Assembly: GCA_005862285.1 (NCBI GenBank)
Contig: SZXW01000010.1
Coordinates: 372,001-436,000 of the forward strand
Origin: Chlorobium sp.
GTDB lineage: Bacteria > Bacteroidota > Chlorobiia > Chlorobiales > Chlorobiaceae
DNA length: 64,000 bases
Reading direction: 5' to 3'
The notes below the pieces were generated by a model, which saw nothing but the letters and a program-made list of their open reading frames with translations, did no database searches and was not told the DNA's origin. The position numbers and the translations under genes are program-made. Below, piece after piece: positions 32,620 to 38,197 of the stretch (position 1 is the first letter of the stretch; each line of letters begins with the position of its first letter).

Positions 32620-33444
32620 TCAATAATAATTTACAAACCCGGTCTCACTGATAATCTTCTTTCCTTCAGGTGTTTTCGGCATGTCGACAAACTGTTTGAC
32701 AGCTCCGGTCGGCTGTCCGTTTGTGTAGAAGAACAACGGACGGTGAATAGGGTATGTTCCGTTTTTGACGGTTTTGGTATCCGGGTCGATACCATCGACA
32801 AGCAGTGCTTTCACCGTTTGATCAACATAACCCATACCAATAAACCCGATAGCGGAAGGAGTCGAAGCTACACGGCTCTTGACTGCACCGCTGCTCGCCT
32901 GGGTTTCGGTTTTTTTTGAAATCGGGTTGTCCTTGCCCATGACAAGCTCCTTGAAAGAGTCCTGGGTACCGCTGTTCGATTCGCGCTGGATCATGACGAT
33001 AGGTGCATTCGGACCGCCAATCTGGCTCCAGTTTGTATATTTGCCCATATAGATACCGCGGATCTGATCTTTTTTCAATCCATTCACCCGGTTGCTCGGA
33101 TGAACGATCATGCAGAGCCCGTCAAGTGCCACTACATGTTCGACTGGATTGATACCTTTGCCTTTGGCTGCGGCTATTTCATTGTCCTTCATAGGACGGG
33201 ACATCGTGGCGATATCACAGGTTTTGTTGATGAGGCTCTTGGCTCCGTTGCCCGAACCTGATTCACTAACAGTAACCTGGACACCGGTGGTTCTGGTAAA
33301 CTGTTCGGCAAAAGCCTTTGCGATCGGTCCGACTGTCGTCGAGCCATCGATAACGATTTTACCTGCTGCCTGCGCATTACCTGAAGCCATCACTCCAAGG
33401 ACAGCTGCACCAAATACTATTTTTCTGAAGAGTTTCATGATCAT
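32620..33444 (-). CDS. pstS: Phosphate-binding protein PstS
   Basis: Periplasmic phosphate receptor of the Pst ABC importer, 274 residues with a signal peptide ending near NAQAA. Phosphate-contact regions are IDGSTTVGPIAKAFAEQF, ESGSGNGAKSLINKTCDIATMSRPM, VALDGLCMIVHPSN and QRESNSGTQDSFKELVMG. It is not in the pstCAB operon, which begins 4.9 kb away on the other strand. Instead it follows the outer-membrane porin gene by 134 bp, and a hairpin lies between them. No Pho-box repeat is seen directly before it, so the porin promoter probably drives both. Confidence 0.96.
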   Translation of the reverse strand: MIMKLFRKIVFGAAVLGVMASGNAQAAGKIVIDGSTTVGPIAKAFAEQFTRTTGVQVTVSESGSGNGAKSLINKTCDIATMSRPMKDNEIAAAKGKGINPVEHVVALDGLCMIVHPSNRVNGLKKDQIRGIYMGKYTNWSQIGGPNAPIVMIQRESNSGTQDSFKELVMGKDNPISKKTETQASSGAVKSRVASTPSAIGFIGMGYVDQTVKALLVDGIDPDTKTVKNGTYPIHRPLFFYTNGQPTGAVKQFVDMPKTPEGKKIISETGFVNYY

Positions 33445-34836: not shown

Positions 34837-34876
34837 GTGTTAAGGAACTGTTACGGGATTGTTACGATATTGAAAA
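34837..34876 (-). promoter_or_regulatory. Pho-box-like array upstream of the porin gene
   Basis: On the plus strand, heptamers GTGTTAA, CTGTTAC, TTGTTAC and (weaker) TTGAAAA begin at 34837, 34848, 34859 and 34870, exactly 11 bp apart with 4-bp linkers. Read along the gene strand the motif is GTAACAA-N4-GTAACAG, similar to the TTAACA repeats of Bacillus PhoP boxes and the 7+4 geometry of PhoB boxes. It lies 92-131 bp before the porin start. Confidence 0.75.
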
Positions 34877-34900: not shown

Positions 34901-35161
34901 TTATTTTTTCGGCTCTGAAATGACAACGACGCCGTGAAAATGCTTTTCAGGAATAACTATGCGTCCTTTGGAATTGATCACGAGATGAGGGTAGCCTGAC
35001 TTATGAAGCAAATGCATTAGTTTGATCAGCTCTTTTTTTCCTGCAGGTTTGATAATGACATCCGCAACAGCGTCAACTTTTTTGACACCATGTTTTTTCA
35101 ATTCCTCCCGAAGAAAAAATTCCCCTTTGATTTCAGCTCTCAGTTCTTCAAGATGCAGCAT
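34901..35161 (-). CDS. Small protein resembling half of a MurB-type FAD subdomain
   Basis: Protein of 86 residues with a good ribosome-binding site (GGGGGG, 7 nt before the ATG). Residues about 28-85 (VDAVADVIIKPAGKKELIKL, then MHLLHKSGYPHLVINSKGRI, then HFHGVVVIS) read like the first alpha/beta subdomain of MurB and other FAD_binding_4 proteins, but the second subdomain and substrate domain are missing. It could be a remnant or a small regulatory or scaffold protein. It sits between the porin promoter and the GNAT gene. Confidence 0.55.
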   Translation of the reverse strand: MLHLEELRAEIKGEFFLREELKKHGVKKVDAVADVIIKPAGKKELIKLMHLLHKSGYPHLVINSKGRIVIPEKHFHGVVVISEPKK

Positions 35162-35231: not shown

Positions 35232-35894
35232 TCAAGAAATCGTTGTATTCGGAAGTCCGGACTTCCGTTCAAAAATTCCATGCAAGCCATAGATCAACTC
35301 CTGATAAATCCTGCTCCTGCTATCCTTTACACGACTGTAGAGTTTCAGGATATCGAGAGTGAGAATAATGCGGGTTGAAGAACAGTTAAGCTCTCCGAGC
35401 AAGTGTGTCCCGATGATTTCAAAGCCAAGTACACGCGTATGAAAATTCAAAGGGGAATGCTTCTCTCCCTCAAACACGTCCGTAATGAAATGGGTATAAT
35501 CACGATCAATGACCTCTGCGACAGCAGCTCTCATAAGATGCAGGGCTACTTTGTGGTTTCTGCGAAACTTTTCGAGAATCATGAACCTGCCGATTTCCAC
35601 ATAACGCCCTGTTTTTTTCAGTGTTTCAATTTCAATTCCAGGCATCAGCCTAACTTCGTACTCTGCTGGAATATCCAGAGCGGGATCATACTGAAGACGA
35701 AGCAATCCGGCCGGATTACCGTTCACTTTAGCCATAAACCATGAATACACTCTGTTTTCTGAAACATCTTCCGGAATTTGATTGTTAACCGAACTGATCC
35801 AGTTTTTTTCGATACAGAACACCTGATTGATAATGTCAAGAGCGGCATCACGATCAGCGGTATTTACAACTTTGGATACTGTTATGCTGGACAT
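35232..35894 (-). CDS. GNAT-fold acyltransferase, FeeM/autoinducer-synthase-like
   Basis: Protein of 220 residues starting at the ATG at 35894, which follows an AAGGAG site by 6 nt; the frame is open to 35975 but lacks such a site. GNAT-like features are YVEIGRFMILEKFRRNHKV (core strand plus basic pyrophosphate-binding turn) and NFHTRVLGFEIIGTHL (C-terminal strand). The layout resembles N-acyl amino acid synthases (FeeM) and acyl-homoserine-lactone synthases, which transfer acyl chains from ACP. It lies 34 bp downstream of the PlsC-type gene and shares its Pho-box promoter. An OlsB-like role in an aminolipid is a hypothesis. Confidence 0.65.
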   Translation of the reverse strand: MSSITVSKVVNTADRDAALDIINQVFCIEKNWISSVNNQIPEDVSENRVYSWFMAKVNGNPAGLLRLQYDPALDIPAEYEVRLMPGIEIETLKKTGRYVEIGRFMILEKFRRNHKVALHLMRAAVAEVIDRDYTHFITDVFEGEKHSPLNFHTRVLGFEIIGTHLLGELNCSSTRIILTLDILKLYSRVKDSRSRIYQELIYGLHGIFERKSGLPNTTIS

Positions 35895-35928
35895 AGTCGC
35901 TCCTTTTATGGGTTTAAATGAGAAAGCT

Positions 35929-36702
35929 TTAACATGGACACGGATGGCTGTATTGTTTGCCTGATAAAACCGCAAGAGATATCATGATTTCATGGGTCAC
36001 ATTTTCAGCGATTCTGCTCAACTGCTTACGGTCACTATTCGAAGCAACCGATCCCGATATGATCTCTCGATAAGTTTCAGATTCTTTCCTGAATGAAAGT
36101 GGACAGCCGATCCTGACGGTCATTCTTCCTATCACAGGAATTTTATTCCTTTTCTTTTTAGTCTTGAAATCAATGCCTACAGGAATAACAGGAACGCCTG
36201 TACGCAAGGCTATATGAGCGACTCCAGGTTTTCCCTTCAGCAGCATCTCAGGATGTTTATTACGCTTGCCTTCCGGGAATATGCCGATACTGTTACCGGC
36301 AAGTACTTTTCTGGTGCATTGTTCTATAACATTATCTTGAGTAGCCTTTTGTTTCTTTCCTACTATCCACGGTATATTTGTTCTCTTGTTGTAAACATAA
36401 ACAGGATCGATCATATCCATGATCTGACCAATGATGGGTATTTTGCCGTACATCCAGTCTATAACAAAACTGATTCTGCGCCCTCCCTGATGATAAATGA
36501 TGAGTGCTGGTACCATGAGAGCTTCTAACGAATTGTTGTGGTTGAAAGCATAAATCAGGGTACCATTATTTTCAAATAGATGTTCAATGCCGTAAGTTTC
36601 TGTCAACAAAAAGTTTGGAAGCATGAAAAGACGTAACAACAAAGCTTTGCCCTCAGTTAAAAAGGGAAGAGGTTTGAAAAAATAACCATAATCTTTTTTC
36701 AT
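35929..36702 (-). CDS. PlsC-type acyltransferase with HX4E active site
   Basis: Protein of 257 residues of the 1-acylglycerol-3-phosphate acyltransferase superfamily. The acceptor motif FPEG is intact (residues 142-145, GIFPEGKRN), and PGVAHIALRTGVPVIPVGI is typical block IV. The catalytic HX4D box reads HNNSLE (His55 to Glu60), so the conserved Asp is replaced by Glu. It heads a two-gene unit with the GNAT gene and has the best Pho-box array of the window upstream. By analogy with OlsA it may acylate a lyso-aminolipid instead of lysophosphatidate; this is inference. Confidence 0.78.
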   Translation of the reverse strand: MKKDYGYFFKPLPFLTEGKALLLRLFMLPNFLLTETYGIEHLFENNGTLIYAFNHNNSLEALMVPALIIYHQGGRRISFVIDWMYGKIPIIGQIMDMIDPVYVYNKRTNIPWIVGKKQKATQDNVIEQCTRKVLAGNSIGIFPEGKRNKHPEMLLKGKPGVAHIALRTGVPVIPVGIDFKTKKKRNKIPVIGRMTVRIGCPLSFRKESETYREIISGSVASNSDRKQLSRIAENVTHEIMISLAVLSGKQYSHPCPC

Positions 36703-36773
36703 AAGATTTTTCCTTTTAGCGCTCCTCTACTTTCTCAGAACCCTTAATCGTATAACTATAATAAAAGGATATA

Positions 36774-36813
36774 TTGTTACTGAATGATGACAATCTTGTG
36801 ACGATTGTGTAAA
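36774..36813 (-). promoter_or_regulatory. Pho-box-like array upstream of the PlsC-type gene
   Basis: On the plus strand, heptamers TTGTTAC, TGATGAC, TTGTGAC and GTGTAAA begin at 36774, 36785, 36796 and 36807, each 11 bp apart with linkers TGAA, AATC, GATT. It lies 72-111 bp before the start codon, and a plausible -10 (TATTAT) follows on the gene strand. Confidence 0.75.
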
Positions 36814-36870
36814 ATCTTTCATGTAGCAGTTATTATCAGCAGAGTATTATAAAGGCGGTTATTAAGGCCT

Positions 36871-37944
36871 TCAGGAAAGAAGATGCAGACGGGAAAAAAC
36901 ATAATCGAGAGAATCCTCATTCAGAACAATTCTTGAAATATCAGTCGATTCAAGAACAATAGGACGATTATTTCTCTCACTTTTAAATCTCGGGCTCTGT
37001 TTACCATCATACCAATAGACAAGCTTTATAACTCCTGAATCAATTTCAAGAGCCGTAATTCCACGTTTTCCTATCGTACAGCCAGAATTGAAAACACTCG
37101 GGATGGTAATTTCATTGTATACACTTGTTCTTATTCCATTTCTTTTCGATTTACTTATACAGGCGCAGAGTTCGCTTTTCAGTTCATCAATAGTTTCTTT
37201 GATCGATAGCCGTTCTTCTTCATCAAGCTCAGGGTATGTCCTGCAAAGTGCTTCTATTCTGAATTTAAGATAATCAACTTTTGATAATGATTCAAATAAA
37301 GGCCTATGGGTATGACCAATAACTGATATGATTTTAAAACGGTTTGAAAATTCATAAATAGCCTTTTCGATAACATACTTTTTTCTGCTGTTGTAAGCGA
37401 CTGAAAAGTTTTTTATTCCGATCGGCTTGGCAAAATAGCGAAGAATAAATACTATAGCATCATTTAAAAATGAATATTTTTTCCACAAATAAGTTGATAC
37501 TTGATGACCATGAAAAACCAGTATTGTTTCATTTCCATATTTCAGCTTGACTGATTCAACCAATGATGCTGAAAAAGGATATTTTTCATTATTGAACAAT
37601 ATCGCATCATGATTACCATATGTTTTCAGGAAAAAACCATTCTCTTGAAATTTCAGAAATAAATCAAACATATCTTGCCACCTGGCAGAAATACTTTCTA
37701 ATGAAAATTTGTAAAGCTCCTCAATATCACCATTAAGTAACAGGCTATATTTTTGATTAAAATAATAATTATCAAGAATATTTTTTACTAACTCTGCATT
37801 TTGCCTGAACTCATCATTTCTTCCGCCATTACCCATATGCAAATCACTAAGAATCACAATCTTTGATGAGTTATCAATATTTATCGTTACGGCATCTTGC
37901 ATTACTTTTCGCAAAAGGCAATGTCTATTATTATGAATCAACAT
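36871..37944 (-). CDS. Calcineurin-like metallophosphoesterase
   Basis: Protein of 357 residues with every di-metal motif of the family: ILSDLHMG (Asp34, His36), LLNGDIEEL, YGNHDAIL, VFHGHQ and VIGHTHRP, followed by NSGCTIGK. It resembles the UDP-diacylglucosamine hydrolase/PlcP branch that acts on lipid-linked phosphoesters, with an extra helical insert (about residues 230-270). A Pho-box-like pair lies 75-92 bp upstream. Phosphate salvage from phospholipids, as by PlcP in rhizobia, is an attractive but unproven role. Composition is more AT-rich than the neighbours. Confidence 0.8.
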   Translation of the reverse strand: MLIHNNRHCLLRKVMQDAVTINIDNSSKIVILSDLHMGNGGRNDEFRQNAELVKNILDNYYFNQKYSLLLNGDIEELYKFSLESISARWQDMFDLFLKFQENGFFLKTYGNHDAILFNNEKYPFSASLVESVKLKYGNETILVFHGHQVSTYLWKKYSFLNDAIVFILRYFAKPIGIKNFSVAYNSRKKYVIEKAIYEFSNRFKIISVIGHTHRPLFESLSKVDYLKFRIEALCRTYPELDEEERLSIKETIDELKSELCACISKSKRNGIRTSVYNEITIPSVFNSGCTIGKRGITALEIDSGVIKLVYWYDGKQSPRFKSERNNRPIVLESTDISRIVLNEDSLDYVFSRLHLLS

Positions 37945-38018: not shown

Positions 38019-38036
38019 TTGTTAATTCTTTGTAAA
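38019..38036 (-). promoter_or_regulatory. Pho-box-like pair upstream of the metallophosphoesterase gene
   Basis: Plus-strand heptamers TTGTTAA (38019) and TTGTAAA (38030), 11 bp apart with linker TTCT, in the divergent 353-bp region between the metallophosphoesterase and pstC genes. Orientation relative to the gene is the same as at the other three sites. Apart from this and the pstC box, the region is AT-rich and shows nothing else. Confidence 0.6.
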
Positions 38037-38179: not shown

Positions 38180-38197
38180 TTTACAAACTTGTAACAA
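38180..38197 (+). promoter_or_regulatory. Pho-box-like pair upstream of pstC
   Basis: On the minus strand TTGTTAC-AAGT-TTGTAAA, i.e. plus-strand TTTACAA (38180) and GTAACAA (38191), 11 bp apart. It lies 101-118 bp before pstC. Because pstC is on the plus strand, the motif again faces the gene in the same sense as at the porin, PlsC and phosphoesterase promoters. Confidence 0.65.

Follow-up and report, generated by a model that had tools for sequence, protein, structure and literature searches.

A Putative Pho-Controlled Acyltransferase Gene Pair of Chlorobiaceae and Its Possible Role in the Synthesis of a Phosphorus-Free Acyl-Amino-Acid Lipid

Known Aminolipid Systems and the Locus of Chlorobium sp.

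According to PMC11631085, the known bacterial aminolipids are assembled by an N-acyltransferase of the PF13444 family, acting first, and typically by a PlsC-like O-acyltransferase, acting second, with the 3-hydroxyacyl-ACP (ACP, acyl carrier protein) providing the hydroxyl group for the second acylation; in the same paper, the product of FeeM is given as free N-acyl amino acids. Pairs formed by a PF13444 N-acyltransferase and a PF01553 PlsC-like O-acyltransferase are OlsB/OlsA, for the ornithine lipid, and GlsB/GlsA, for the glycine lipid of Bacteroides. Ornithine lipids often appear in response to phosphate limitation, similarly to the Pho control predicted here for a gene pair, plsC and a gene for a GNAT-fold protein, that is located in region 35232-37944 of a 64,000-nucleotide (nt) stretch of DNA of Chlorobium sp. 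(GCA_005862285.1, contig SZXW01000010.1, forward strand, 372,001-436,000). This whole stretch is hereafter referred to as the window, and it belongs to a 2.61-Mb Chlorobiaceae genome (G000). The best reading is that the pair works like OlsB/OlsA, with the same two-enzyme logic and a first enzyme lying outside PF13444; it is, on balance, probable that plsC-GNAT represents a Pho-regulon unit making a phosphorus-free acyl-amino-acid lipid.

The first gene of the unit encodes a PlsC-like O-acyltransferase of 257 amino acids (35929..36702, minus strand; PF01553, E 5.1e-20), and the second one a FeeM-like, GNAT-fold N-acyltransferase of 220 amino acids (35232..35894, minus strand; PF00583, E 1.8e-5). 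The open reading frame (ORF) listed for the latter (35232-35975) is too long, its upstream TTG start being placed inside plsC; in the GNAT alignment, where the invariant residues are present, the conserved start corresponds to the ATG at 35894, and the plsC-GNAT spacing is therefore 34 nt. A calcineurin-like metallophosphoesterase of 357 amino acids (36871..37944, minus strand; PF00149, E 2.4e-9) is a Pho-locus neighbour outside the pair. The three genes are flanked by a porin gene, a small ORF and pstS (32620-33444, minus strand) on one side, and by pstC (38298, plus strand, on the divergent pstCAB-phoU side) on the other. The presence of these three genes between pstS and pstC had been recognised in an earlier reading of the DNA letters (the sequence-only reading), whose PlsC-type, GNAT and metallophosphoesterase assignments agree with Pfam. 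The idea of a Pho-linked lipid module put forward there has been partly confirmed as an observation and partly supported as an interpretation, the module comprising two genes and not three.

Coupling and Promoter of the PlsC-GNAT Pair

The distribution of the pair was analysed in 86 Chlorobiaceae genomes (65 of good quality), in a wider Bacteroidota sample of 394 genomes (308 of them non-Chlorobiaceae), and in a separate set of 46 related loci fetched from species genomes, some of whose contigs or flanks are short. The GNAT is found in 59/86 Chlorobiaceae genomes (50/65 of the good-quality ones), for a total of 60 genes, and the PlsC subfamily in 60/86. Each of the 60 GNAT genes is preceded directly, on the same strand, by a member of the PlsC subfamily, with gaps between the model matches ranging from -10 to +73 nt, in agreement with the single unit proposed by the sequence-only reading, and the co-occurrence of the two genes in the 86 genomes gave a Fisher p of 3.7e-21 (uncorrected for relatedness). 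In G043, the pair has been duplicated as a pair. The only Chlorobiaceae genome harboring the PlsC subfamily but no GNAT is G020, whose assembly consists of a single contig of 2,154,946 bases; here plsC ends after about two thirds of its length, the GNAT gene is gone, and the porin gene is located 266 nt past the last PlsC match (L087:13495-14300), to be compared with G016, in which a complete pair is followed by the porin gene. G020 is a natural deletion that has taken the end of plsC and the entire GNAT gene, the pair having decayed together. In 46/46 fetched loci, too, the GNAT is preceded on its own strand by a PlsC relative; the KSB1 loci are damaged in one gene each, i.e., a broken GNAT in L046 and a PlsC with two late stops in L041. 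The PlsC and the GNAT genes are a tightly coupled two-gene module, predicted to be transcribed as one unit.

Outside Chlorobiaceae the GNAT is rare, being present in 3/308 of the other genomes of the Bacteroidota sample (62/394 overall, 59 of which are Chlorobiaceae), in 3/82 genomes of the phylum of the Caldithrix locus (where the KSB1 genome is counted) and in 2/345 genomes of the phylum of the 'Deltaproteobacteria' locus; one Spirochaetales locus was also found. The assignment of the pathway to Chlorobi had been too narrow, since the pair has scattered representatives in Calditrichota, KSB1, Spirochaetales and 'Deltaproteobacteria', as well as in other Bacteroidota. In the GNAT tree (midpoint-rooted and with several long outgroup branches), the Chlorobiaceae form a single group (support 81/90) from which the other phyla are excluded, and the history of the pair looks like descent within Chlorobiaceae plus sparse transfer. 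The PlsC is upstream of the GNAT in 8/10 non-Chlorobiaceae GNAT loci (L041, L042, L043, L044, L046, L059, L060 and L089), with one PlsC followed by two tandem GNATs in L060 (Bacteroidota); no PlsC is found beside the GNAT in L058 or in L063, the record of the latter comprising only about 1.3 kb upstream of a broken GNAT.

The promoters were analysed with a half-site model that was trained only on the porin, pstC and pstS promoters and then scored for three-unit arrays; it replaced a strict simple Pho-box pattern, which was found in only 11/42 plsC promoters. The p-values behind these counts were obtained by shuffling 100 times (floor 0.0099); because of the relatedness among loci, the counts are not independent. 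Four loci lacking a good plsC start (L041, L043, L044 and L046) were left out of the counts and tested apart, and the promoter of the divergent transporter described below, which shares the plsC intergenic region, was left uncounted. In the window, a Pho-box-like array of four half-sites with a period of 11 bp (TTTAC-GTCAC-GTCAT-GTAAC; 36776..36813, minus strand) precedes plsC (p 0.002), and 42/43 plsC upstream regions gave p<=0.01, the array lying, in most cases, 95 to 120 bp ahead of the start. The genes of the training set reached p<=0.05 in 25/25 cases for porin, 17/23 for pstC and only 4/29 for pstS, and the controls remained at chance at the same threshold (GNAT 1/47, small ORF 2/39, pstA 1/18, pstB 0/15, phoU 0/18); the lack of a Pho box of its own in front of the GNAT fits a gene that comes second in a unit headed by plsC. 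Outgroup plsC arrays were detected at p<0.02 in Calditrichota L042, KSB1 L041 and 'Deltaproteobacteria' L044, and in L059 (p 0.012); none was detected in L060 (p 0.37). The plsC-GNAT unit is, apparently, Pho-controlled through 11-bp repeats common to the pst-gene promoters.

Two other promoters of the window are worth describing: the porin gene is preceded by a three-unit Pho-box-like array (34839..34865, minus strand; p 0.001), and pstC by a two-unit repeat (38180..38195, plus strand) that does not reach significance when scored with the three-unit model (p 0.17).

Enzymes of the Pair and Proposed Pathway

The window PlsC obtained 72.1 bits with PF01553 (cut-off 23). The usual motif of the lysophospholipid acyltransferases (LPLAT) is HX4D; the PlsC of the pair exhibits HX4E in its place, with N54, H55 and E60 invariant in 25/25 aligned members. 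In the window genome, HX4D is found in both of the remaining PF01553 proteins, and since a PlsC with HX4D thus exists separately there, that of the pair is not the housekeeping one.

As for the second enzyme, 29/29 aligned members match the general GNAT model and 25/29 match the FeeM family PF21926 at E<=0.01 (best 6.2e-9), whose cut-off is exceeded by the outgroup GNATs of L058 and L059 and by one of the two in L060; apart from the generic model, FeeM represents the best Pfam relation. Conversely, PF13444, to which OlsB, GlsB and GluB belong, does not match the window GNAT at E<=1; its matches are weak in 5/29 members at E<=0.01 (best 2.3e-4), the family member of G001 being barely over the cut-off (22.5 vs 22.4 bits), and it is found at E<=0.001 in only 6/86 Chlorobiaceae, two of the six being weak matches at the pair's own GNAT gene. 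A further similarity, to the PEP-CTERM/exosortase-associated acyltransferase TIGR03694, is sub-threshold in 14/29 members (best 4.9e-5) and amounts to 22 bits, vs a cut-off of 112, for the window GNAT. The five other GNATs of the window genome match ordinary acetyltransferase models, and none of them matches FeeM at E<=1. Sequence searches of the PDB returned no relative; with the AlphaFold model of the GNAT (predicted local distance difference test, pLDDT, 78.7), the first four ranks of Foldseek are all chains of FeeM (2G0B; E 6.3e-8, TM 0.56/0.66), in line with the FeeM-like layout claimed by the sequence-only reading. The GNAT fold is firm and the FeeM-specific structural similarity suggestive. 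In the alignment, an E-x-G-R-F motif is conserved and there is no GxG loop at the usual CoA-binding place, a combination that would fit an acyl-ACP enzyme rather than an acetyl-CoA enzyme. By Pfam and fold the GNAT appears closest to FeeM, and its membership of the OlsB or of the FeeM family is not claimed.

On this basis, the following route might be proposed. Under phosphate limitation, PhoB would bind the 11-bp repeats in front of plsC; the FeeM-like GNAT would then take an acyl chain, probably a 3-hydroxy one, from acyl-ACP and attach it to an amino acid, at its amine, or to a similar amine, the HX4E PlsC-like enzyme would add a second acyl chain onto the hydroxyl, and the resulting two-chain aminolipid would stand in for phospholipid in the membrane. 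Observed directly are the genes themselves and how strictly they are coupled, the conservation of the repeats in the promoter, and the resemblance of the GNAT to FeeM at the level of family and fold.

Several points weigh against this route. The aminolipid itself is a prediction. According to PMC11631085, PF13444 is found in all established aminolipid N-acyltransferases, and no further (O-)acylation of FeeM-type products has been reported, a difference from the GNAT described here, which is strictly paired with a PlsC and apparently Pho-controlled. The HX4E motif is unusual for an LPLAT, so that catalysis by the PlsC of the pair is assumed. The window GNAT has no match to PF21926 at E<=0.01 or even at E<=1, and two of the five members that were scored singly fall under the Pfam FeeM cut-off. 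In the VIA comparison, FeeM (Z 15.2, 166 residues, root-mean-square deviation 3.5) is tied with many acetyltransferases ranked above it, so that the FeeM relation relies mainly on sequence profiles; the fact that aminolipid families are missing from the VIA list carries no evidential weight. Nor was FeeM recovered when profiles from two alignments were searched against the PDB. Lastly, no Pho box was found upstream of plsC in Spirochaetales L043 (p 0.84), in KSB1 L046 (p 0.13) or in L089 (p 0.16-0.21, depending on the start).

The similarity to FeeM also leads to a different explanation, according to which the products of the GNAT are N-acyl amino acids with a single chain, used as a signal or a surfactant, and the PlsC furnishes lysolipid or acyl donors or recycles them, with no two-chain aminolipid being formed. 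The free product of FeeM itself, the position of the GNAT nearer to FeeM than to OlsB, and the loci L058 and L063 without an adjacent PlsC are in line with it; nevertheless, the PlsC and the GNAT are inseparable in all the 60 Chlorobiaceae places, another PlsC is present in the genome for ordinary work, and a phosphate-controlled promoter would suit a membrane lipid better than a signal, which makes this explanation unlikely. An even lower probability can be assigned to the possibility that the pair modifies an existing phospholipid or protein, through the N-acylation of phosphatidylethanolamine or of porin lysines, the PlsC re-acylating the leftover lysolipid. A GNAT together with a lysolipid acyltransferase would fit such donor recycling, and in many loci a porin gene preceded by a Pho box lies near the pair; however, neither a porin nor a pstS, pstC or pstA relative is found beside the pair in the sampled flanks (some of them short) of other phyla, and an acylated phospholipid would save no phosphorus.

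Metallophosphoesterase, Neighbouring Genes and Implications

The sequence-only reading had attributed Pho-box promoters to all three genes and had seen in the metallophosphoesterase a third member of the module. According to this model, which now appears very improbable, the enzyme would be a PlcP-like phospholipase freeing headgroup phosphate, and the pair would build the replacement lipid. In its favor, the three genes are adjacent in the window and the pair is preceded by the phosphoesterase in 28/46 fetched loci (some contigs end too early to tell). As in PlcP/LpxH-type enzymes, the protein is calcineurin-like (PF00149, the only family at or above cut-off), and its best Foldseek match in the PDB is LpxH, a phosphoesterase acting on a lipid substrate (E 1.7e-4). 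In Bacteroidota L060 (L060:2686-5828), a gene for a calcineurin-like phosphoesterase is followed, in a same-strand row, by a PlsC and then by two GNATs in tandem. On the other side, the metallophosphoesterase is found in 83/86 Chlorobiaceae genomes, mostly in two copies and regardless of the pair (57/59 genomes with it vs 26/27 without; Fisher p = 1), its structural model is poor (pLDDT 62.7), it has no NCBIfam match at E<=1, and a blast search with the window protein gave no match in L060. Among the fetched loci, it is not beside the pair in the non-Chlorobiaceae ones. A two-unit Pho-box-like repeat precedes it in the window (38021..38036, minus strand; p 0.018) and is not conserved, only 4/29 orthologues (window included) reaching p<=0.05. 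The claim on the promoters is thus upheld for the plsC-GNAT unit and weak for this gene; likewise, the conserved part of the three-gene neighbourhood is the PlsC-GNAT pair, with which the metallophosphoesterase is not associated. As a third partner it was rejected on its distribution and its unconserved Pho box, and it may be a neighbouring Pho-locus phosphatase, either phosphate-scavenging or lipid-A-related, rather than a pathway step.

A second copy of the metallophosphoesterase is located elsewhere in the window genome (L086), where no Pho box precedes it (p 0.55); about 2 kb from it there is a broken second pst set, with pstS, pstB and phoU fragments (L086:4979-5635, G000:C13), and the same locus contains HAD-phosphatase and methyltransferase genes, which flank the pair in other species. 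In G020, the second copy is broken too. A PHP-domain phosphoesterase, often located upstream of the metallophosphoesterase, has a Pho box in 2/13 cases at p<0.05.

Another neighbour is a DASS/CitMHS-type transporter (PF03600), which adjoins the pair in 18/46 loci, i.e., 17 of Chlorobiaceae plus Caldithrix L042 (5370-6836), and is mostly divergent from plsC. Strong matches to it (E<1e-150) occur in 21/394 genomes of the Bacteroidota sample, and all the 21 carry the GNAT (62/394 genomes do); within Chlorobiaceae, the GNAT is present in 20/20 genomes with the transporter vs 59/86 overall (p 1.5e-4, uncorrected), and in the 21st genome, G094, the transporter is 3 kb from the GNAT. The window genome does not harbor the transporter. 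It could be involved in head-group supply or in product movement, and this is to be regarded as a lead, not as a result.

The gene following the GNAT in the window is an ORF of 86 amino acids (34901-35161), conserved in most of the fetched Chlorobiaceae loci and resembling an isolated piece of UDP-N-acetylmuramate dehydrogenase (NCBIfam PRK13905, E 8.6e-6, well under the cut-off). The window genome also encodes an OlsB-like PF13444 protein of 265 amino acids (L068:5788-6585; OlsB-like in NCBIfam, sub-threshold), which was considered as the real enzyme and rejected, being located between two radical-SAM/SPASM genes with no PlsC beside it. The two genes code for maturases related to those of nif11 peptides (L068:4223-7914; G000:C2, about 349,200-352,900), which suggests a fatty-acylated peptide cluster; strong counterparts of the PF13444 protein are present in only two other Chlorobiaceae of the 86 (G042 and G076).

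A broader proposal, which is put forward tentatively and remains rather doubtful, is that green sulfur bacteria possess an undescribed class of phosphorus-free aminolipids made by a FeeM-type N-acyltransferase and an HX4E LPLAT, with the DASS transporter supplying a (possibly acidic or sulfonated) head group in some species; the loss observed in G020 could explain why it has been overlooked. In full-text searches of open-licence literature, from which older work on the lipids of green bacteria may be missing, no description of the pair or of a Chlorobi aminolipid pathway was recognised from titles and abstract openings.

What the analysis provides is a specific pair of genes, a condition predicted to induce it, and a deletion that occurred naturally and can serve for comparison. 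If the proposed function is true, FeeM-type N-acyl amino acid synthases would also start membrane-lipid pathways, outside the current PF13444-only view given in PMC11631085. Chlorobiaceae live in stratified, often phosphorus-poor water, and in that case surveys based on olsB-type markers would miss the aminolipids of this whole family of anoxygenic phototrophs.

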